A DNA stretch of 64,000 bases from positions 744,001 to 808,000 of the forward strand of contig BAFH01000004.1 of assembly GCA_000296795.1 (NCBI GenBank). The letters run 5' to 3'. The notes under the pieces are model-generated. The model saw nothing but the letters and a program-made list of their open reading frames with translations. It was not told the DNA's origin and searched no databases. The first letter of the stretch is position 1; each line of letters begins with the position of its first letter. The DNA is from Candidatus Jettenia caeni (GTDB lineage: Bacteria > Planctomycetota > Brocadiia > Brocadiales > Brocadiaceae). The position numbers and the translations under genes are program-made. Of this stretch, positions 20,011 through 33,209 are shown piece by piece.

Positions 20011-20191
20011 TTCAATAGAGATGCGGTTATAGTCCCAAGGTAAGATTTATTTTACTTCTTACGGTAACGCATATGCCCCTATGGGGGTTATTTCAAAAAC
20101 TATAGTAATCCAAAAATAAAACTGAACACAATGAGACTGGGTTTGTTCGTGCCACCTTATCATAATAATGTCCGATTTCATCCTTTGCACA

Positions 20192-20404
20192 CTATAATCC
20201 CGTAGGGATGTCATGATTATAGCAAAAATTAGAAAAAAACCCTTAAACCCCGAAGGGGTGACATAGGAAAAACCTGTGTTGATATATCATTCAGGATTTG
20301 ATGGTATGGTAATATTCTATTAGCATCATTTCACCCCTTCAGGGTTATTCATTATGGTTGTTCCATGCCTATAATCATGACAGCCCTTCGGGCTTGAAGT
20401 ATAG
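20192..20404. repeat. Nested inverted copies of intergenic palindromic repeats
   Basis: The intergenic stretch 20011-20537 holds four related GC-hairpin units. The outer pair, 20192-20222 (core CCCGTAGGGATGTCATGATTATAG) and 20369-20404 (inverted; core CCCTTCGGG), match over about 25 bases. The inner pair, 20246-20266 (CCCCGAAGGGGTGA) and about 20330-20350 (inverted, CACCCCTTCAGGG), match over about 14. A shorter unit, CCCCTATGGGGG, sits at about 20075-20086. They look like dispersed extragenic palindromes rather than a single terminator. No gene is seen in this interval. Confidence 0.55.
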
Positions 20405-22565: not shown

Positions 22566-24168
22566 CTAGTGCTGCCTATATCCCACACGAACAATTGACT
22601 CATATCCAGCGTTAGAGCATTGTCTTTGCCACTCAGCAAGTTTCATCAAGAAAATCAATGATTTGATTTCAGAAATCTTTGTGAATTGTGTTTTTCGTTC
22701 AAAAATAAGCCAAAGGCATATCTTTTTTGGTCTGATGTCTTGTCCGTCGATTTGGATTGAGGAGGTTCGAGTTTGTAAAATTTTAACTGTCGCAACTGCC
22801 TGATCTATTGCATAGGCAAACTTTTGCGGAGTACCAATTTTAACAAAAAACGCTGTATTGTCTTTGAACAAATCCAGTTTTTCTATTTTGTACTGTTGTA
22901 AAGTGGTTACATGCCTATCTAAATTCATGTAGCCATCATTTTCTCTCAAAGAGTTGAAATGATATTCAGCATAACCGTGAGCACCCCTTTTCTTCATCAG
23001 AAAGGTCGTTTCGCCACTGCTTAAATACCGAATTAGAAAAGTTGATATTTGGGTTTTCAAAGACAATTCTATCATCAATTTGTTTCTTCAGAAATTCAAT
23101 ATAGTTTTGGTTGAAAATATGCCAATCGCCATCACGGAGAAAATGCCTCTCGTCATCGACATAATCAAGAAAATATTTCAGTGGTTTTGTATAACCCTTG
23201 TTATGCTCGTCTGAAACTTTAATTTTGAGTTTGTTAATGTTAGTCGCAAGATCAATATTGTGTCGGTTTATAAAATCGTGAAGAACAGAAAAATTGAGTT
23301 CTCCTTCTACATCCTGCCCTTGTCGGTCAAGTATAAAGCGATACTGATTTTTACCCAGAAAAACAAAATCAACACCAGAAACTGTCGCCTCTGCTGGCTG
23401 TAGACCAGCGTTCGTACTGTTTAGAATTTCTTGCACAAGTATTTGATCCAGTTCTGCTATTTTTATCTTATCTGCAATAGCTGTTGCTCTGGGTAAAATT
23501 ATCTTAGGGCTTTTCAGTAGTTCTTCATCAATAGCCTGGACTAATTCAGGTAGATCATCTGGCAATATTTCTAAATGCAACTGTGCCGAATTGCCAAAAC
23601 TTGCAACCTCTCCCCATTTATCCTTATCAATCGTCTTGGCCTTAACATAGTGTATAGATTCTCCGCTATCATATTCAAACTCGCTATTTTCCTGATAAGA
23701 AATGATTGTTTTGCTTTTCTTGCCACCAAACAATTTCGAATTTTTGAGCTTGAGATTGTTGTCAGCTATCCTCTCGGCAAGATTGATCCCAAAATCTGTA
23801 TCGCAAAAATCCTTGAGATAAAAGTGCGATTTTCCCATGCTGATTGCATAAGACAACGATGAATTTGAGATCAAAAATACTCCAAAATAAACCTTGTTCT
23901 TTGGTTTACTATCCAAACCAAAATAACCTTCGTACAGATCGGCCCACCAAATATCAATGTCCTCCGGTTCTTTTGAAAAATAAAATGAAAGGGTAAAGCC
24001 GTTAACACTTTTCTGTCCGGCAAGAGAGAGGCCGACGGTTTGTAGTTTTTCAAGCAATTTCGACTCTTTGACCTTTTCGATTTTGTAAATATTGTATTTG
24101 GCCATACCTTCAGTTAAAATCCAATAACCTCTAATACTAGAAAAGTCTCTATTATACCACCAGCTCAA
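22566..24168 (-). pseudogene. DUF6119/TIGR04141 'sporadically distributed' protein, frameshifted
   Basis: Two overlapping minus-strand frames form one family member of about 510 residues. The N-terminal frame (24168 to 22966; probable start Met at 24105, MAKYNIYKIEKV) has 'VYFGVFLISNSSLSYAISMGKSHFYLKD', 'DFGINLAERI', 'EVASFGNSAQLHLEILPDDLPELVQAIDEEL' and 'LDYVDDERHFLRDGDWHIFNQNYIEFLKKQIDD'. The C-terminal frame continues from about 'RGAHGYAEYHFNSLRENDGYMNLDRH' to 22566. The join lies in the AAAAGGGG run at about 22983-22997; dropping one G restores one frame. These patchily distributed proteins are often found beside restriction systems. It may be a true mutation or a homopolymer error. Function is unknown; a defence role is an inference from context. 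Confidence 0.75.
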
Positions 24169-24295: not shown

Positions 24296-24403
24296 CAGAC
24301 TGGGTCAAATGAACTTTTAACGGCATTTTCTATACAGTATATTGTAGTGTATGAATTAATAACTACTATATATGAATAAAAAATGTCCATTTGACCCAGT
24401 CTG
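24296..24403. mobile_element. MITE-like 108-bp palindromic element
   Basis: Perfect 16-bp terminal inverted repeats, CAGACTGGGTCAAATG (24296-24311) and its complement (24388-24403), enclose 76 AT-rich bases with no reading frame. The trinucleotide GAA flanks both ends directly and could be a target duplication. A terminator would be expected to have a shorter loop. The rest of the gap between the DUF6119 and ASCH genes (24169-24489) shows nothing else apart from the right-hand direct repeat. Confidence 0.5.
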
Positions 24404-24489: not shown

Positions 24490-24858
24490 CTAAATATAAA
24501 CAAATGACTGTGGTGGTTTTAAACCAAACTGCTCTTCAATACAATATGGCTTCAAATATCTTACGTATTTTTTTATCTTTATTGCATACCCGTTTTCAAG
24601 CCCGCTAAAATAATTAAAAAAATACTCTTCTGTAATGCCAGCAAACTTTTTGGTCTGCTCCCATAGATCAAATATATCCCCAGCCAAGATATGATCTACT
24701 TCAAATTCTCCGATAACTTTGCTAATTGGCGCCGAGGCATATACCACTATTTTTTTAACTTCTTGCCTTTTAAAAATCGATCTTCTAAATTCGTACTTTT
24801 TCTCTCCGCAGAATATTTTATCCACAAATTCTGGTTTAATAGACAATAATACTTTCAT
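24490..24858 (-). CDS. ASCH-domain (PUA-like) protein
   Basis: The 122-residue protein is a single ASCH domain. It opens with 'VLLSIKPEFVDKIFCGEKKYEFRRSIF', the typical helix with G-x-K-x-x-E-x-R, followed by 'KKIVVYASAPISKVIGEFEVDHILAGD', the central strand pair. ASCH domains are PUA-like folds that bind RNA or modified nucleotides; some are hydrolases. Its ATG lies inside the end of the PIN-GNAT gene (23-bp overlap), which points to translational coupling and joint function. It would be the last gene of the type I restriction operon. Confidence 0.85.
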   Translation of the reverse strand: MKVLLSIKPEFVDKIFCGEKKYEFRRSIFKRQEVKKIVVYASAPISKVIGEFEVDHILAGDIFDLWEQTKKFAGITEEYFFNYFSGLENGYAIKIKKYVRYLKPYCIEEQFGLKPPQSFVYI

Positions 24859-26350
24859 CCGTCTTTGTCTCCCTTACTATTAATTTAAAATCATCAAAAC
24901 TTATCTTGGCAAAACCTCTAGGAGCAGAATTAACGTTGGGGATAATCTTCAAATTAATCAGATCGTTTAACGTAATCCTTTTTGGAAAAGAATATGCATA
25001 TAAAAAATTAACAATAAAAGGCCGATTATTACGTTTATAATTCCAATGCTCTAATAATTCCTGAATCGAAAAGACGCTTCGTTTTCCGCACAAATGTATA
25101 AACTCATGTTCATCTTTAATATTGGTTATAACACTTTCAACGATACCTAAAGTTGTCACTACGCCCTTATAAAGTCCTCCCGTACGATAAAAAGCAATCA
25201 TATCCCCCGATTCAAGATTTCTCTCAATCGATCTGGAAATATACACCTTGCTTATTGCATTTCGAAATGGCTCATTTTCTACATAATCGGCGGGGAATTC
25301 TGTCTTTAAGATAGAATCGGGAAGCAGATTGGTGTGATATTCCGGATATATTGGGACAATAAATATACTTCCCTTTGTTGAAATATAAGGGAATGTTACT
25401 TTGGGAACATCTCTGTTTGCTTTTTTTGAAAAATTACGAACATAAACCAGTTCTTCATTAGAACCGGATTTTTTATGCCCATGAAACACAAAACCATAAG
25501 TTTCCAACAAAGCAATCAGACGTTGCTGTTCAAGACGCTTATTGAATATGGTAACGTATATCTCTTCAGTCTTTGCTTGAATTGCGTTATCAAAAATAAT
25601 CTTGAGAAATCGTTCGCCAAGTTTAAAACCGTTATAATCAACCTTGAACGTTCCGATCTTAAGCCTTTTCTTTTTAGAAAAAGCAGGGATAATATCTGAA
25701 TAATCTTCAGTCCCCCGTTCTATTTTAAGATACAGAAATGCCAGTAGTTTATTATCTTGCTTACAAACATAGGCTATTTCATCTGCTTTCCTATTGAACC
25801 ATTTATCAAAACCGGGATAGTCTTGTTTTAATGTAGAAAAGAATTCATCAGCAAGATTTAAATTGCCAAAATGCTCTTGCTTGACCGAAAGGACTTTATA
25901 GTTTTGAAGTTTGGGGTTCTCCACCGTAACTTTTTCGAGAAAGGAATCGATAGTAAATACGCGATCACATACACCCAGAAGCAAAGCCTTGTGGAAAATT
26001 TGCTTATCTTCGCTAATCAAAATATCAACCCGATTATTAACCAATTCATTTAACAAGGTGGTATCACTTAAATCATTTTTGTCATTGTCAATTTTCGAAC
26101 ATACTTGTTGTACTGTGTGATTTATCGGGGCTTTGGTCTTAAGCTGGTGATAATTACCCAACTTAATATTAAACGTTGCAACCGTTTTCGGATCTTTGTG
26201 CTTGTTTATTTCCTCGACTGTCACTGGATGAACACATTTCTGATAATGCAAGTCATCAAGCCATTTAAATAAAATGCCTATATCGGGATTTACTACATTT
26301 CCTGCCTCCCTATGAATAACTATGTTTGTGTCCAGTAACACTTTCATCAA
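24836..26350 (-). CDS. PIN-GNAT-PUA/EVE-like fusion protein
   Basis: The 504-residue protein seems to have three domains. Residues 1 to about 142 are a PIN ribonuclease: 'MKVLLDTNIVI' (Asp7), 'VTVEEINKH' (Glu46), 'NDLSDTTLL' (Asp93/Asp96) and 'ISEDKQIF' (Asp115), so the acidic site looks intact. Residues about 150-310 look like a GNAT acetyltransferase ('KIGTFKVDYNGFKLGERFLKIIFDNAI' and 'LIALLETYGFVFHG'). Residues about 330-500 resemble a PUA/EVE/ASCH fold ('KVYISRSIERNLESGDMIAFYRTGG..GVVTTLGIVESV'). It starts 26 nt after hsdS and overlaps the ASCH gene. A toxin or defence effector acting on RNA is plausible (inference). PIN and GNAT are good assignments; the third domain is less sure. Confidence 0.75.
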   Translation of the reverse strand: MMKVLLDTNIVIHREAGNVVNPDIGILFKWLDDLHYQKCVHPVTVEEINKHKDPKTVATFNIKLGNYHQLKTKAPINHTVQQVCSKIDNDKNDLSDTTLLNELVNNRVDILISEDKQIFHKALLLGVCDRVFTIDSFLEKVTVENPKLQNYKVLSVKQEHFGNLNLADEFFSTLKQDYPGFDKWFNRKADEIAYVCKQDNKLLAFLYLKIERGTEDYSDIIPAFSKKKRLKIGTFKVDYNGFKLGERFLKIIFDNAIQAKTEEIYVTIFNKRLEQQRLIALLETYGFVFHGHKKSGSNEELVYVRNFSKKANRDVPKVTFPYISTKGSIFIVPIYPEYHTNLLPDSILKTEFPADYVENEPFRNAISKVYISRSIERNLESGDMIAFYRTGGLYKGVVTTLGIVESVITNIKDEHEFIHLCGKRSVFSIQELLEHWNYKRNNRPFIVNFLYAYSFPKRITLNDLINLKIIPNVNSAPRGFAKISFDDFKLIVRETKTDESIIVY

Positions 26351-26376: not shown

Positions 26377-27741
26377 TTATCCCTTAACAAATGCCTCTCG
26401 CAAAACAGACTGCATCAGCATTTTGGCTTGTTCCTTGCGTTCGCATATTCGTTTTTCCAATTCGTCTATCATGGTCATAAGTTTATCCACCCGCTCAACA
26501 ATAGCTTTTTGTTCAGCAATGGGGGGAAGAGCTACCGGCAATTTGCATAAGAGCTTCTGGTTGAGATTATCCATTGTTTGACCAACTGAATCTTGCAACA
26601 GATAAGCTTGCGATTTTGTGGAGCAATACGCCATTCGAAAATACACTTTATCTACACATAAAACTCTAAGGAAAAAAGAGCCCGTACCGCATAACCACCC
26701 ATTTTGCAGTTCTTGAACAATCGCACATTTGCTGAGGTTACCACGTCTGGCAATAATTAAATCGCCTTGTTTTAGGGAGTATCTTTCCAATCTCTCTTTG
26801 GTTTTTTGTGAGATACACATCCGTTCATCTGCACATATTTTCCCATCAAGAATATTCATAGGATTGACAACGGGTATTCCACCGCTAACATAGTCTGATT
26901 TATGAAGCATTGAGCCAAACGGCCCTGTAGAGAGTTCTTCACATATCTCTACCACCCGGCACCATACCCATCTATCGGGCAAATCAAAAGGCTTTTCTGC
27001 TTCAGCAATCGGTGCAATCGGTTTATCTTTCTTAATTCTTATCCTGAGCGAAGTCGAAGGGTTTCCTTCTTTTATCAGTCGCTCTTTTTCGGCTTTGATC
27101 TTCTCAAGCAATTTTGAGGCGTGATTATCTCCGCTGATAAGATCAGGATGTTGCTCGCGCCATTTGGCCGTCAGCTTTCCTTCAATAGCCTCTTGCAATA
27201 TTCTTAGGCGAAGTTGTTTGAGAAAAGACTGCTGGTGAGTTATCTCACTGCCCAAATGATCCATTTCATTTTCAATTCTTTTGAAAAAGGAAACGACCTT
27301 TTTTTGGAACTCAATATCCGGCAAGTAAATTTCAAGAGGCAGAAAATGTTTAGGTTTTATTTCTGTTTTTATACCGCCCTTAACCTGATCTTTAAGTGTT
27401 TGTACAAAAGATTGACTCCTGACAAATCGCTGAAAGTAATCTATATCTATTTGCCTTTCATCAAAAATGTAGGACGAGTAATGAATAGTCGCCGTAATCG
27501 GTTCTTCTCCATGATAAACAGCAAGAGCACCCTTTGAAACATTGATCCCAGAAATAACAAGATCTCCGGGTTCGATAATGATCATATCTGTCTTTGAACC
27601 TTTATTAGAAAGGTGAATTTTACCGAAAAAGTCGATCTTATTCAGCCTTTTCAAGCCCTGCACAGCTTCATCATCCGGGTCATATCTGCCTTCCCGTTCT
27701 TTCAAAAACTGACTGATTTTTACCTTCTTCCACTCACCCAT
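26377..27741 (-). CDS. hsdS: Type I restriction enzyme specificity subunit HsdS
   Basis: HsdS gives the DNA target of the HsdR2M2S complex. The 454 residues hold two target-recognition domains (about 1-150 and 250-400). Each is followed by a helical spacer: 'EFQKKVVSFFKRIENEMDHLGSEITHQQSFLKQLRLRILQEAIEGKLTAKWRE' and the C-terminal 'PIAEQKAIVERVDKLMTMIDELEKRI..AKMLMQSVLREAFVKG'. The first TRD is unusually close to the N-terminus. Between the halves lies a short PSTSLRIRIKKD stretch that derives from an inserted dispersed repeat. The gene overlaps the end of rhuM by 8 nt. Confidence 0.92.
   Translation of the reverse strand: MGEWKKVKISQFLKEREGRYDPDDEAVQGLKRLNKIDFFGKIHLSNKGSKTDMIIIEPGDLVISGINVSKGALAVYHGEEPITATIHYSSYIFDERQIDIDYFQRFVRSQSFVQTLKDQVKGGIKTEIKPKHFLPLEIYLPDIEFQKKVVSFFKRIENEMDHLGSEITHQQSFLKQLRLRILQEAIEGKLTAKWREQHPDLISGDNHASKLLEKIKAEKERLIKEGNPSTSLRIRIKKDKPIAPIAEAEKPFDLPDRWVWCRVVEICEELSTGPFGSMLHKSDYVSGGIPVVNPMNILDGKICADERMCISQKTKERLERYSLKQGDLIIARRGNLSKCAIVQELQNGWLCGTGSFFLRVLCVDKVYFRMAYCSTKSQAYLLQDSVGQTMDNLNQKLLCKLPVALPPIAEQKAIVERVDKLMTMIDELEKRICERKEQAKMLMQSVLREAFVKG
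27042..27061. repeat. Dispersed 'CTGAGCGAAGTCGAAGG' repeat inside hsdS
   Basis: The bases TCCTGAGCGAAGTCGAAGGG match a motif that recurs between genes in many bacteria and, read in this frame, typically gives the peptide PSTSLR. Here it lies within hsdS and keeps the frame, giving NPSTSLRIRIKK in the linker between the two halves. Confidence 0.6.
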
Positions 27742-28785
27742 TCTTCCGCCCCTTTTTCTTCGGAAGGTGTTTTGCCGCTTCCTGTTCTATCATTTTTAAA
27801 GCCTCATCATCGGCAAGCGTTTCTGCTTCAGCCTCACTCTTCAAACGATTTTTATTAAAAACCTCATAATGTTCCAAAGCCAGTGCATCAGCAACTTCTT
27901 TGGTTACGGTTCCGGCATGCTCAAGGATATCACGTTCATGAAACTTGAGAAACGCGTCAAGCTTTTTGCGCCAGTCGCGCATGAAGACCTGCCGGTGGCG
28001 TCTCGCCTGGTCTTCAGCATAATCAAGGTACATGATCACGATTCTGTTAAGCTGTTCCATTTCTTTTTCATTGAGGTAATTCTTAGCAGTGGTCCATCGC
28101 CCTGACGCACCTTGACGCCTTTCCATGCGGTAAGACCCATATTGGGTTTTGATGCATCTGCCCGCTCGGAAATTATCTCTGCTGCCGTCTTGCCGGAGAC
28201 AGCGAAATGGAGTTTGTTCTGAACTATTTTGAAAAACTCCAGGGTCTCTTCCGCCTTCGGGTCATAATCCACTGCCAGCTTATAAATATCCCAGATTTTC
28301 TGATAAAACCGCTTCTCGCTGGAACGGATGTCGCGAATACGCTCAAGGATTTCATCAAAATAATCAGAGCCGATGTTTACGGCCTGCTTAAGCCGTTCAT
28401 CATCCATCGTGAAGCCCTTGACTAAGTACTCATTAAGCCGTTCCGTAGCCCACCGGCGGAATTGGGTACCCCGATGAGAACGGACACGATAGCCAACTGC
28501 AAGAATGACCGGAAGGCTATAAAATTTCCGCGCGCGGCTGACCTGTCTCCCACCCTCGACTTGAACTTTTAAGTTTTCCTTACAAGTTGATTCTTGAGGC
28601 AATTCTCCTTCTGCGTAAATCTCTTTGAGATGAATCGTAATATTCTGCGGTGTCGTCTGGAACAAGTCCGCCATAGCCGCCTGAGTTAACCAGATGGTCT
28701 CATCTTCCAACCGTACTTCAAGCTTTGTTTGTCCATCTTCCGCCTGGTAAATAATGAGCTGGGATTTATTTTCTGCGTTATCCAT
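27734..28785 (-). pseudogene. rhuM: RhuM-family protein, frameshifted
   Basis: Two overlapping frames form one RhuM (virulence-associated) protein. The first (28785 to 28036) has the N-terminal part 'LEVRLEDETIWLTQAAMADLFQTTPQNITIHLKEIYAEGEL', 'REFYSLPVILAVGYRV'-like 'KFYSLPVILAVGYRVRSHRGTQFRRW' and 'DYDPKAEETLEFFKIVQNKLHFAVSGKTAAEII'. The second (28126 to 27734) has the C-terminal part 'AKNYLNEKEMEQLNRIVIMYLDYAEDQA'. One T missing near 28100 (GATGG for GATTGG) would join them as GDWTTAKNYL. The family is often embedded in type I hsd operons, and here it overlaps hsdM and hsdS by 8 nt each. Its biochemical role is unknown. The defect may be real or a sequence error. Confidence 0.8.
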
Positions 28786-30211
28786 GCTCCAACTCCTTTC
28801 TCAATTGTTGAAGAAGCTCATCACTCTTTCGAAATGATTCGTGAATCATCGTCACCAGTTCCACACTTGAATACGCGTGTTTTTCTTCAGGTGTATGCGG
28901 ATTTTTTATGTCGAGATTATAGCCATTGGAGGCAATCGTATCAATAGAGACCTTCCACGCCTGTTTATTCTCATTTCGCTTCTTCCACCACTTCTTAAGA
29001 TCGTCAAACTCGCTTTTCTGTATCGGTTTCGTCTTGCTATATGCCTTAACGCCTTCGGGCAGTTTGTGTTCCCAGTACCATATTTCTTTGGTCGGTTTAC
29101 CTTTTTCAAAGAAAAGCAGATTCGTTGCAACGCTGGCATACGGCTGAAAGACTGAATTTGGCAACCGCACGATGGTGTGCAGATTACAATTTTCCAACAA
29201 ATGCTGGCGAATACGCTGTTTTACGCCGTCGCCGGTCATCGATCCATCCGGTAAAACAATACCGGCACGACCTCCTTCTTTCAAATACCGCACCATGAGC
29301 ATTAAGAACAAATCAGCGCTTTCCGTCGTGCGGAAATTTTGGGGAAAGTTAGTCTCTACCCCATCAGTAACCGAGGCGCCAAAAGGCGGATTGGCAAGGA
29401 TGACATCCACCCTGTCTTTTTGTCCGATTGAGGTATATTCACGGTTTAAGCTGTCGGTATAATCTACATTCGGCACTTCGATATCGTACAATATCAAATT
29501 GGTTACACAGAGCATGAAGGGAAGTGGTTTGAATTCCATACCGTGAATGCTTTTTTCAAGTGCCCTAAGATCCTCAATGCCTTTGATGTCCTGTTTACGG
29601 ATATTTTCTATAGCGCTGGTTAAGAACCCGCCGGTACCGCAGGCAGGGTCCAGCACTTTTTCTCCCAGGCGAGGATTGATCATTTCCGTGATAAACTCTG
29701 TCAAGGCACGGGGAGTATAAAATTCCCCATAATTTCCTGCGCTTTGAAGGTCACGCAAGATCGTTTCGTAAATATCGGCAAAGACATGACGGTCTTCCGA
29801 ACTATTAAAATCAATCTGATTTAACTCATTGAGCACCTGTCGGATGATCGTCCCGTTCTTCATGTAGTTATTGGTGCCATCGAATATCTCGCGGATAATG
29901 AGGGCGCGCTTATTGCCGGAACTCACATCGAGGTTTTTTAACTGCGGGATCAATGTGCCGTCAATGAAGTTTTTCAACTCATCACCGGTCATGCCCTCGT
30001 CATCAGCCGCCCAATTGCGCCATTGCAATTTCTTCGGCATCGGGGAAACATATTTGTCGTTGAGAAGCTCAATCTCCTTGTCCTTGTCATCAAGGATTTT
30101 GAGACTAATCATCCATCCCAACTGCTCAATGCGCTGTGCATCTCCGGACACGCCCGGATCCTTGCGCATAATGTTCTGTAATGTTTTTATAATATTCCCG
30201 ATGTTTTTCAT
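28778..30211 (-). CDS. hsdM: Type I restriction enzyme methylase subunit HsdM
   Basis: HsdM is the adenine-N6 DNA methyltransferase of the complex. The 477-residue protein has the helical HsdM N-terminal domain (about 1-150, 'GMTGDELKNFIDGTLIPQL'), the AdoMet-binding motif I 'KVLDPACGTGGFL', and catalytic motif IV 'VDVILANPPFGASV'. 'FYTPRALTEFITEMINPRLGEKVLDPACG' is typical of type I methylases. Its stop overlaps the rhuM start by 8 nt. It lies downstream of the GxxExxY gene and hsdR, so all subunits are on one strand. Confidence 0.95.
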   Translation of the reverse strand: MKNIGNIIKTLQNIMRKDPGVSGDAQRIEQLGWMISLKILDDKDKEIELLNDKYVSPMPKKLQWRNWAADDEGMTGDELKNFIDGTLIPQLKNLDVSSGNKRALIIREIFDGTNNYMKNGTIIRQVLNELNQIDFNSSEDRHVFADIYETILRDLQSAGNYGEFYTPRALTEFITEMINPRLGEKVLDPACGTGGFLTSAIENIRKQDIKGIEDLRALEKSIHGMEFKPLPFMLCVTNLILYDIEVPNVDYTDSLNREYTSIGQKDRVDVILANPPFGASVTDGVETNFPQNFRTTESADLFLMLMVRYLKEGGRAGIVLPDGSMTGDGVKQRIRQHLLENCNLHTIVRLPNSVFQPYASVATNLLFFEKGKPTKEIWYWEHKLPEGVKAYSKTKPIQKSEFDDLKKWWKKRNENKQAWKVSIDTIASNGYNLDIKNPHTPEEKHAYSSVELVTMIHESFRKSDELLQQLRKELEHG

Positions 30212-30228: not shown

Positions 30229-30256
30229 TCTCACAAAGCACACAGAGATCACAAAG
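30229..30256. repeat. Inverted repeat, left arm around the GxxExxY gene
   Basis: This 28-bp segment (starting TCTCACAAAG) matches the reverse complement of 30645-30672 at 24 of 28 positions. It ends 2 bp before the stop codon of the GxxExxY gene (stop codon first base at 30259). Such ACAAAG-rich tracts are not coding. Confidence 0.6.
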
Positions 30257-30258
30257 TT

Positions 30259-30639
30259 TTAAATAGTCCCGTTAATAACTCGCCGAATACCATTCTTTAG
30301 TAAAATTTCATTAAAATTGATGAGTAAACCCAATTTCTTATTTGAAAGACGTATATAGGTAAGAAGTTGTTTCAAATGAATATCTTCAATTTGTTTAACA
30401 GATTGTAACTCTATCAAAACGCTATCATTTACGACGATATCTGCCCGATATCCTTCATCTATGATTATTCCCTCATAATTTATTGAAATACTTTTTTGCA
30501 CCTCTGCTTTATAACCATTTCTGCTCAACTCAAAAACAAGCGCTTTTTCATACGCGGATTCCGGCAGACCTGGGCCCAAGGCAGAATGAACCTTAATAGC
30601 CAACCCAATAATTTTTTCACTTAATTCATTTTCATTCAT
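30259..30639 (-). CDS. GxxExxY protein (PD-(D/E)xK nuclease superfamily relative)
   Basis: The 126-residue protein has the family's naming motif at G24-L-P-E27-S-A-Y30, the N-terminal 'NELSEKIIGLAIKVHSALGPG' helix and the core 'YRADIVVNDSVLIELQSVKQIEDIHLKQLLTYIRLSNKKLGLLINF'. The fold is related to PD-(D/E)xK nucleases. The usual E-x-K at the core reads E-x-Q here, so catalysis is doubtful. It sits between hsdR and hsdM, tightly framed by inverted repeats, which suggests an inserted cassette. No biochemical function has been firmly assigned to the family. Confidence 0.88.
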   Translation of the reverse strand: MNENELSEKIIGLAIKVHSALGPGLPESAYEKALVFELSRNGYKAEVQKSISINYEGIIIDEGYRADIVVNDSVLIELQSVKQIEDIHLKQLLTYIRLSNKKLGLLINFNEILLKNGIRRVINGTI

Positions 30640-30644
30640 TTTTT

Positions 30645-30672
30645 CTTCGTGAGCTTTGTGTTCTTTGTGAGA
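30645..30672. repeat. Inverted repeat, right arm around the GxxExxY gene
   Basis: This is the partner of 30229-30256, 24 of 28 bases complementary. It begins 5 bp upstream of the GxxExxY start codon and ends 5 bp before the end of hsdR (30678), so the gene plus its two arms (30229-30672) forms a 444-bp unit in the intergenic space. Confidence 0.6.
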
Positions 30673-30677
30673 ACTCT

Positions 30678-33083
30678 TTACGCTGCTGTATATAGTTCAT
30701 GCTCCAGTTCTTCAATAACATGAAGATACTGATCCCTCCCGCAAAACATCTGCACGATTTCCGTGGGTGTCCCGATTTGATTAAATGGTTCTATTCTCAA
30801 AATCGTAAGGTCTTCTATATTTTCAATACCCTCATCAGCATATTTATCCAGGAGGGCATCAATAACCTTCCGCGCTTTCTCCCCATATTTAGAGAAATAA
30901 TTGCGTTTCTTTATATTTTCCGCGCGCTCCCGTCGGGTAAGTGCAGGCATATCCAAAGCAATGTGGCAGATAAGGTCAAATACATCCAAATCCTTCTTTA
31001 CCTCTGCCATCAGGTTTTCCGGAATAATCCCTTGTGATTCTAACTCCTCGATAACTGCTTTTTTTTTATGAGCACCGTTCCATCGGGCAAGAAAATTATC
31101 GAGTGATTGAAACTCCTGCAAGATGCCCTTCTTTGTGTAGTCCTTGAGGCTTTCGGTAATAAGTTTTCCATCTGCGTCCAGATGCTGAACCCGTTCGTTT
31201 AACACTGAAACATCCACTCCGGCCACATATACTTTCTGACGAGGTTCAGATACAATTGTACCACCCTGGATAATTTCCGGTTGTGTGGGGTATTCGACCG
31301 ATGTTTCTTCTTCAAAATCCACCGGTTGGCCGGTTTCCGGGTCAATGACTTCCTGGTCTTCTTCCGGATAAATATCCTGATCCGTTAATTCCTGTTCGCC
31401 CGTAACTTCTTTGATCATAACCGGGTCGCCGTCAAAAGCCGGATCAGCGAAAAGATCCGTCACATTACGGAAATCCATAATGGCGAAGAAGGTCTTGCCA
31501 TACTCTTCATTAATACGAGTTCCGCGTCCGATGATCTGCTTGAATTCGGTCATTGATTTGATGTTTGAATCAAGCACGATTAGTTTGCATGTCTGTGCAT
31601 CAACGCCGGTGGTCATCAATTTCGACGTGGCAGTGATAACCGGATAACGCTCCTCAGGATTTATGAAATTGTCCACTTCGCGTTTACCTTGTTCATCATC
31701 ACCGGTAATGCGCATGACATATTTATAGTTTTCCCGAACCACATCGGCATTTTCGTTGGCGATAGCCTGCCTTATTCGTTCGGCATGCTCTATATCCACA
31801 CAGAAAACTATCGTTTTATCGAATCGGTTTGTTTTCCGTAAATATTCCGACACCCTTTTGGCTACCAGTTTTGTCCGTTCATCAATCACCAAATTTCTAT
31901 CAAAGTCTTTGATGTTATAAACATGATCCTCAACCTCATTGCCATCCCTGTCTTTTTTACCCGCTTCAGGCCGCCAGCCTTCAAGATCGGTATTAAGCCC
32001 AACCCGAATGACTTTGTATGGGGCCAGAAATCCGTCTTCAATGCCTTGTCTGAGCGTATAGGTATAAATCGGATCACCGAAGTATGTGATGTTTGATACT
32101 TCCTTTGTCTCCCTCGGTGTTGCAGTAAAGCCAATATGCGTGGCGGAACGAAAATAATCAAGTATCGCCCTCCATGCGCTATCAGCGGCCGCACTCCCAC
32201 GATGGCACTCATCAACGATCACCAGATCAAAAAAATCACGGCTAAACTCTTTGTAAGCATCCTTGTCTTCATTGTAGTTTGTTAATCCCTGATAAAGGGC
32301 AAGATAAATCTCGAACGCCTTATCAATCTTTTTCTTTTTTATGACAGTCATCTTTTTTTTAAAGTGCTTAAAATCATTGCGCCTGGTTTGATCAATAAGC
32401 ACATTGCGGTCGGCCAGGAATAGGATTCGTTTTTTGTGTCCGTTTTTCCAAAGACGGTAAATAATCTGGAAAGCGGTATATGTCTTTCCCGTTCCGGTAG
32501 CCATTACAAGAAGAATTCTGTTCTGCCCGCGTGCGATAACTTCCACGGTTCGGTTAATGGCTATTTGCTGATAATAACGAGGCAACCGTCCTGATCCGTC
32601 AAAGAAGTAATCAAAAGAAGCAATCTCTTCCTGCCGGGGCGTTTCAATCTTCTTATACCTTTTATACATCTTCCAAAGCTCGGCAGAAGAAGGGAAAGCG
32701 TCTAAAGACAATTCTTTCTCGATTTGCTCAGAGAAACCGGAGCGATCATGTTGAACAAAACCATCGCCATTTGAGCTGAACGCAACCGGAACATCAAGTG
32801 TCTCTGCATAGCCTAACGCCTGCTGTAATCCGGCTCCTACGGAATGATTGTTGTCCTTTGCTTCAATAACGGCAATAGGAATATTCGGCTTGAGGTAGAG
32901 AATAAAATCGGCACGTTTTCTTTTCCCCCGGGCAGTCTTGTTACCTTTGACAAAGATTCGTCCGTCAGTAAAAAAGACCTCTTCCCGGACTTGCTTCTCA
33001 ACATCCCATCCGGCTTTAACCAGTGCCGGCAGAATGAACTGCGTGCATATATCTCTTTCAGACAAATCTTTTTTATTACTCAT
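30678..33083 (-). CDS. hsdR: Type I restriction enzyme endonuclease/translocase subunit HsdR
   Basis: HsdR cuts and translocates DNA in the type I complex. The chosen start at 33083 (MSNKKDLSERDICTQF) matches the family N-terminus; the frame opens 25 codons further upstream. Domains: a PD-(D/E)xK nuclease ('RADFILYLKPNIPIAVIEAKDN', about residues 55-80), a superfamily 2 helicase with Walker A 'VMATGTGKTYTAFQIIYRLW' and DECH box 'DLVIVDECHRGS' plus 'HIGFTATPRETKE', helicase C ('IVFCVDIEHAERI', 'QIIGRGTRINEEYG') and a C-terminal helical region (EcoEI type) binding HsdM. About 801 residues, no interruption seen. It is first in the operon; its promoter should lie in 33084-33302. Confidence 0.94.
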   Translation of the reverse strand: MSNKKDLSERDICTQFILPALVKAGWDVEKQVREEVFFTDGRIFVKGNKTARGKRKRADFILYLKPNIPIAVIEAKDNNHSVGAGLQQALGYAETLDVPVAFSSNGDGFVQHDRSGFSEQIEKELSLDAFPSSAELWKMYKRYKKIETPRQEEIASFDYFFDGSGRLPRYYQQIAINRTVEVIARGQNRILLVMATGTGKTYTAFQIIYRLWKNGHKKRILFLADRNVLIDQTRRNDFKHFKKKMTVIKKKKIDKAFEIYLALYQGLTNYNEDKDAYKEFSRDFFDLVIVDECHRGSAAADSAWRAILDYFRSATHIGFTATPRETKEVSNITYFGDPIYTYTLRQGIEDGFLAPYKVIRVGLNTDLEGWRPEAGKKDRDGNEVEDHVYNIKDFDRNLVIDERTKLVAKRVSEYLRKTNRFDKTIVFCVDIEHAERIRQAIANENADVVRENYKYVMRITGDDEQGKREVDNFINPEERYPVITATSKLMTTGVDAQTCKLIVLDSNIKSMTEFKQIIGRGTRINEEYGKTFFAIMDFRNVTDLFADPAFDGDPVMIKEVTGEQELTDQDIYPEEDQEVIDPETGQPVDFEEETSVEYPTQPEIIQGGTIVSEPRQKVYVAGVDVSVLNERVQHLDADGKLITESLKDYTKKGILQEFQSLDNFLARWNGAHKKKAVIEELESQGIIPENLMAEVKKDLDVFDLICHIALDMPALTRRERAENIKKRNYFSKYGEKARKVIDALLDKYADEGIENIEDLTILRIEPFNQIGTPTEIVQMFCGRDQYLHVIEELEHELYTAA

Positions 33084-33209
33084 TTGTTTCTGATCTGTAA
33101 AATGATGCCATACTTTACAAATATGATTTACTCCTGTCAAGAAACAAAAATATGGCATTTTCCTTTATTTTAAATGTTTCTTTTTTCCATTATTTCTGAT
33201 ATTTTGTGT

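Follow-up and report, generated by a model that had tools for sequence, protein, structure and literature searches.

A GxxExxY gene and its arms between hsdR and hsdM

Within the window, i.e. the whole 64-kb stretch of Candidatus Jettenia caeni DNA that was analyzed, a gene of the GxxExxY (PDDEXK_3) family encoding 126 amino acids was located at positions 30259..30639 (- strand). Its upstream neighbor is hsdR of the EcoAI/FtnUII type (30678..33158) and its downstream neighbor hsdM (28778..30211), both of which are also encoded on the - strand. The gene is enclosed by two arms of 28 nt, one on its 3' side (30229..30256, + strand) and one on its 5' side (30645..30672, - strand), which are complementary at 24 of 28 positions. 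The hsdR stop codon lies 5 nt and the hsdM start codon 17 nt outside the respective arm. A preliminary description of this DNA had reported the same gene and arm dimensions and a 444-bp unit between the two host genes; these statements proved to be exact. Moreover, the arm pair is the only one in the window among inverted pairs matching at 24/28 or more positions with a gap of 300–500 nt, and no such pair was obtained in six first-order Markov resamples of the window.

The composition of the arms, which was not part of the preliminary description and refines it, is regular. Each arm consists of three 7-nt words of the form CACRRAG separated by 2-nt spacers, resulting in a period of 9 nt. The 3'-side arm comprises CACAAAG (30232–30238), CACAGAG (30241–30247) and CACAAAG (30250–30256) with the spacers CA and AT, while the 5'-side arm, read on the other strand, comprises CACAAAG (30663–30669), CACAAAG (30654–30660) and CACGAAG (30645–30651) with the spacers AA and CT. 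Mismatches between the arms are confined to spacers and purine positions. A second array of the CACRRAG type was not found elsewhere in the 64-kb window, and scanning the window against Rfam returned one tRNA and nothing more.

Further features of the window were recorded. Two adjacent genes at 24490–26350 match the PADLOC candidate defense pair PDC-M11A/M11B and form a defense island together with the adjoining type I restriction genes. At 24296–24403, upstream of the PDC-M11B gene end, a 62-nt loop separates the halves of a 23-nt inverted repeat (91%), CAGACTGGGTCAAATG, which is not of the word-array type. In the hsd region, a RhuM-family gene (27734–28785) is frameshifted, being read in two frames (PF13310 positions 1–164 and 166–249). 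A frameshift is also probable at 22566–24168, where an open reading frame in another frame follows and overlaps a DUF6119/TIGR04141 gene. Hairpins with CCCGAAGGGGTGACAT are located at 20191–20400, and this motif recurs in an insertion disrupting a GxxExxY cassette of a relative (genome G002, locus L197).

The window protein matches TIGR04256 (GxxExxY; 138.3 bits versus a cut-off of 35, E 1e-40) and PF13366 (133.9 bits versus a cut-off of 22, E 4e-39) over its full length, and a sequence search of the PDB returned zero relatives. Its AF2 model (pLDDT 94.5) was compared to the PDB by means of Foldseek, and the best matches were Cas4 SSO0001 (4ic1, E 3.6e-4), LHK-Exo (E 8.4e-4) and lambda exonuclease, with TM-scores of only about 0.5. 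Based on this model, the protein is predicted to represent a minimal Cas4/lambda-exonuclease-type nuclease with E27, D67, E77 and a QxxxY motif. It resembles Cas4, lambda exonuclease and RecB-type nucleases in its predicted fold and in the E...D...ExK and QxxxY motifs, but differs from them in its small size (about 120 amino acids in the family), the missing Cas4 iron-sulfur region and its location in a word-ended cassette. Residues E27, Y30 and D67 are invariant in 67/67 compared copies and K79 is present in 66/67, the exception being the window copy, in which codon 79 (30403..30405, - strand) specifies Gln instead of the catalytic Lys. The orthologs at the hsd sites L045, L046 and L050 read ELKS at this place. 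The window protein is accordingly assigned to the PD-(D/E)XK fold but deviates from the catalytic D...ExK pattern, and judging from the K79Q exchange it is probably nuclease-dead. Since K79 was lost in this copy alone of 67, the window cassette was probably inactivated recently. Carriage by phages or plasmids was considered and rejected: viral contigs yielded no relative with three proteins of the window genome as queries, a weak search relying on single-protein patterns, and among 72,556 plasmids one query had only 7 matches.

Framing of GxxExxY genes and the arm word code

Seven GxxExxY family matches, i.e. six full copies and the truncated copy L007, were identified in the genome harboring the window. 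Short words recurring every 8–9 nt make up the inverted arms around each of the six full copies; the words are of the CACRRAG type in four copies, CACAGAT in L006 and ACAGGATAA in L005, and the truncated copy has decayed arms. An arm-pattern search of this genome gave 35 matches versus one for the reversed pattern, many of the former representing arm pairs without a GxxExxY gene.

In order to evaluate further copies, a locus was regarded as framed when an inverted arm pair scored at least 11. Framing applied to 88% of 67 copies from the same order, 85% of 60 further copies from elsewhere in the phylum, and 59% of 79 loci retrieved GTDB-wide, compared to 1.5% of 790 random placements with the same geometry. 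The GTDB-wide loci, for which three closer GxxExxY copies of the window genome served as queries, were chosen solely by likeness to the window protein and originate from many phyla, including archaea. Around them, words in the right orientation reach a density of 2.0–2.4 per 150 nt versus a background of 0.085 (about 25-fold), and 405 CRCNRAG words were counted versus two CRCRGAT and one ACAGGAT. Similar arms, which the preliminary description had proposed to look for around other family members, therefore frame most of them in the genome, the order, the phylum and beyond; their absence around every other member, named there as counting against a mobile cassette, did not occur.

The arm word is tightly linked to the protein clade. 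The clades feature the word types CACRAAG (period 8), CRCARAG (8–9), CACGAAT (10), ACAGGAT (9), CACAGAT (9 or 10), CACGAAA, CACGGAA and CACTGAAA. Within genomes, arms differ the more from one another the more their proteins do (r=0.42 for the correlation of the two distances, p=0.0005, phylogeny uncorrected). Furthermore, when cases from elsewhere in the phylum were assigned the word belonging to their closest protein in the order (46–78% identity), 39 of the 44 classifiable new cases were predicted correctly versus 22.9 by shuffling (p=0.0002, likewise uncorrected for phylogeny). At this level of protein identity, unconstrained non-coding DNA is expected to be scrambled. The word code is compatible with recognition by the protein and with strict joint inheritance alike and does not by itself separate the two; common descent of the linked gene and arms yields part of the co-variation.

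The word-array architecture is not private to GxxExxY, since genes for four-helix S23 proteins (PF05635) in the order are framed likewise, namely in 94% of 34 loci versus 3.5% of controls. Their arm words include GTTAGTG, TTTAGGAG, AACGGTTTA and, in some cases, GGCACAAA. S23 proteins are known from insertions (IVS) in rRNA genes, among them those of CPR bacteria (PMC11270868). The Coxiella IVS encodes an S23 protein between terminal inverted repeats and forms a 28-bp stem that is cut by RNase III, and an old hypothesis regards S23 IVS as mobile elements (PMC4990558). Moreover, 18 S23 genes were reported from cas loci, frequently close to cas4 or cas6 (PMC3936711).

Turnover of insertion sites and gene-less arm pairs

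Comparison of related hsd operons, as advised in the preliminary description, revealed the slot between hsdR and hsdM in several states. It is empty in L051, contains other filler in L043, L044 and L055, harbors gene and arms in the window, L045, L046 and L050, and in L047 and L048 contains arms whose enclosed gene is deleted or rearranged. Related operons all carrying the gene without arms, which had been put forward as evidence against the cassette, were not encountered, the occupied sites L045, L046 and L050 being armed. The slot between pyrE and the Sdh_cyt gene (pyrE/sdh) is empty in L183, L184 and L185, full in the window genome and L189, contains a deleted gene in L182 and, in L188 and L190, arms of another kind enclosing a different GxxExxY gene that is deleted; L186 carries the sequence TTTACCGCGGTGAAA, which resembles two joined arm ends. 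At the sites of L006 and L001, species of one genus possess different cassettes, arms and gene both having been exchanged. Turnover of site states was observed at the HlyD-type site and at the NTP-transferase site; ABC-transporter, HlyD-type and sugar-nucleotide genes are among the hosts.

The slot between cas4 and cas1 was compared in 13 genomes. It is empty in G039 and contains S23 with CAGAAT-type arms in the window genome and G001. In G002 the occupant is GxxExxY, its CACGAAT arms matching perfectly (38/38), and in G020 and G022 it is GxxExxY between ACAGGATAA arms; six genomes possess arrays without a gene that are related to AACGGTTTA. Hence, two unrelated families alternate in one slot, each with its own arms. 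A further GxxExxY copy (L002) is located between cas6 and cas2; at this site (L002, L254) the arms are tandemly multiplied (AACCACAAAGGACACAAAGGTT repeats), and the number of repeats differs between two species of the genus. Cassettes in such fixed slots are polymorphic for presence and absence and replace one another. A target-site duplication was not visible in the hsd, pyrE and cas4/cas1 comparisons, in which the empty sites originate from diverged relatives, and no transposition intermediate was found. In G020, one arm occurs in two inverted copies (L341 and L342) that point outward, have matching flanks and lie about 7 kb apart, perhaps representing a composite element.

Gene-less arm pairs were analyzed in genome G234. 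Neighboring pairs point inward in 30 cases and outward in one, with spans of 80–630 bp. Among eight gene-less pairs, at least two are nested, one of them with three levels of different words, and apart from nested words their interiors are unrelated. In 28 of 29 pairs the two arms agree in their sub-word, CAC or CGC (p=5e-5), while spacer similarity within an element does not exceed that between elements. Shared sub-words accompanied by unlike spacers argue for recognition rather than recent copying. Arms as recent mutual copies were rejected for the same similarity of spacers within and between elements, and a copied-MITE model was rejected because the eight elements have no common interior. 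Across 246 genomes of the phylum, an arm-pattern excess of at least 5 was found in 60 of 112 genomes with GxxExxY versus 18 of 134 without (phylogeny uncorrected).

Nature of the cassette and significance

Based on these results, it is rather probable that the 444-bp unit of the window belongs to a widespread class of small cassettes that are or once were mobile and whose protein recognizes its own end words. Such cassettes comprise inverted terminal arrays of two to three short words around one small gene and reside between operon genes, mostly in operon direction. That gene and arms enter and leave as a unit is strongly suggested by the turnover of the sites, and the word code points to recognition of the end words by the GxxExxY protein, which may also act in trans on gene-less arm pairs. 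Guided by the predicted fold, it can be guessed that recognition would serve end-processing in movement or copying. Most copies would then decay by internal deletions, leaving the arms behind. The mobile cassette proposed in the preliminary description is thus supported within limits: framing and site turnover fit, but no target duplication or transposition intermediate came to light, and some interiors have decayed with their arms kept.

Known mobile elements share some of these features. The inverted repeats at the termini, the occurrence of internally deleted sites beside intact and empty ones, the nesting and the gene-less derivatives are reminiscent of MITEs and insertion sequences. Unlike in an insertion sequence, the protein of the only open reading frame is of the PD-(D/E)XK type and is not a known transposase; unlike MITEs, the eight G234 elements have ends but not interiors in common; and unlike in both, the ends are tandem 7-nt words differing by protein clade. 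REP/RAYT systems (REPtrons) likewise feature short inverted sequences scattered between genes and a rare associated gene, but the cassette possesses a PD-(D/E)XK protein and no HUH/Y1 tyrosine nuclease domain. REP sequences are of the palindromic type, and the cassette words are not. Homing endonuclease elements also combine a small nuclease gene, presence or absence at fixed sites and the lack of a transposase; in contrast to them, the cassette is not associated with an intron or intein, occupies many unrelated intergenic sites and has its own inverted ends.

The arms might alternatively be non-autonomous and moved by an unrelated enzyme, such as a host or IS transposase, or by recombination, with GxxExxY and S23 as captured cargo or addiction-like genes. 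This is considered unlikely, yet two unrelated proteins with one architecture and one cas4/cas1 slot agree with it, and GxxExxY therefore cannot be the sole mover. Arm matches also far outnumber GxxExxY genes in many genomes (153 versus 5 in G234, 207 versus 2 in G224), and 18 genomes show a clear arm excess with no GxxExxY gene detected. The shared S23 slots and the unrelated interiors fit the recognizing-cassette interpretation least well and keep transport by another enzyme under consideration. However, the protein predicts the arm word across the phylum and within genomes, which mere cargo would not need to do, and a non-systematic search identified no common transposase.

Selection at the RNA level is improbable. 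Here, the arms would pair in the operon transcript, RNase III would remove the stem so that the insertion is tolerated, and spread might proceed through RNA, as envisaged for 23S rRNA IVS. The orientation of the genes, which follows co-directional neighbors at 44 loci and opposes them at 6 (50 loci), agrees with this, as does the role of S23 as the IVS protein with the RNase III-cut stem mentioned above. The Coxiella IVS moreover resembles the cassette in its size (about 430–450 nt), single small ORF, inverted terminal repeats and scattered distribution. The cassette differs in lying between hsdR and hsdM instead of in an rRNA gene, in encoding a PF13366 protein of predicted nuclease fold instead of S23 (PF05635), and in its arms being clade-specific word arrays. 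Selection for an RNA stem is not supported because arm mismatches are G-U-compatible in 98 cases and incompatible in 98, and because words match better than spacers (0.89 versus 0.55 paired). Furthermore, the words retain their primary sequence from phylum to phylum, which pairing alone would not require.

A static arrangement, with the arms as regulatory hairpins or attenuators and the gene as an ordinary, variably lost operon member, is already disfavored and appears very improbable. The hsdM-abutting arm may provide part of the hsdM ribosome-binding site (GTGAGAGG..ATG), and arms persist after gene loss; against this stand different arm types with different genes in one slot of close relatives, many plainly empty slots, unrelated functions of the host genes and nested pairs. 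It is scarcely credible that GxxExxY is an accessory nuclease of restriction systems with the words as chi-like or self-marking sites, for although the window copy resides in hsd, others reside in cas operons and the predicted fold is Cas4/lambda-exonuclease-like, other slots lie among pyrE/Sdh_cyt, ABC-transporter/HlyD-type and sugar-nucleotide genes, no PADLOC model matches the protein and the window copy has lost the catalytic lysine.

Returning to the recognizing cassette, the chances appear evenly balanced that it constitutes a new class of elements occurring in bacteria as well as archaea. In this class, the clade-specific word code of the inverted terminal arrays would be read by a Cas4/lambda-exonuclease-like protein, at least one unrelated protein (S23) would use the same architecture with different words, and the two would be rivals for slots between operon genes, including those in CRISPR-cas operons. 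The cassette anatomy and the word code appear to be new: in a literature library with few subscription journals, two papers mention GxxExxY but do not deal with such cassettes, six arm sequences were found only in one unrelated paper, and no paper was found that joins the family to repeats. If true, the interpretation would provide one explanation for the large and very widespread GxxExxY family, for the many dispersed 'CACAGAG'-type repeats and for the puzzling presence of S23 genes at cas loci (PMC3936711). Moreover, the clade-to-word code would represent a natural series of protein–DNA recognition, built on a single small protein whose numerous variants each have their own predicted 7-nt word.
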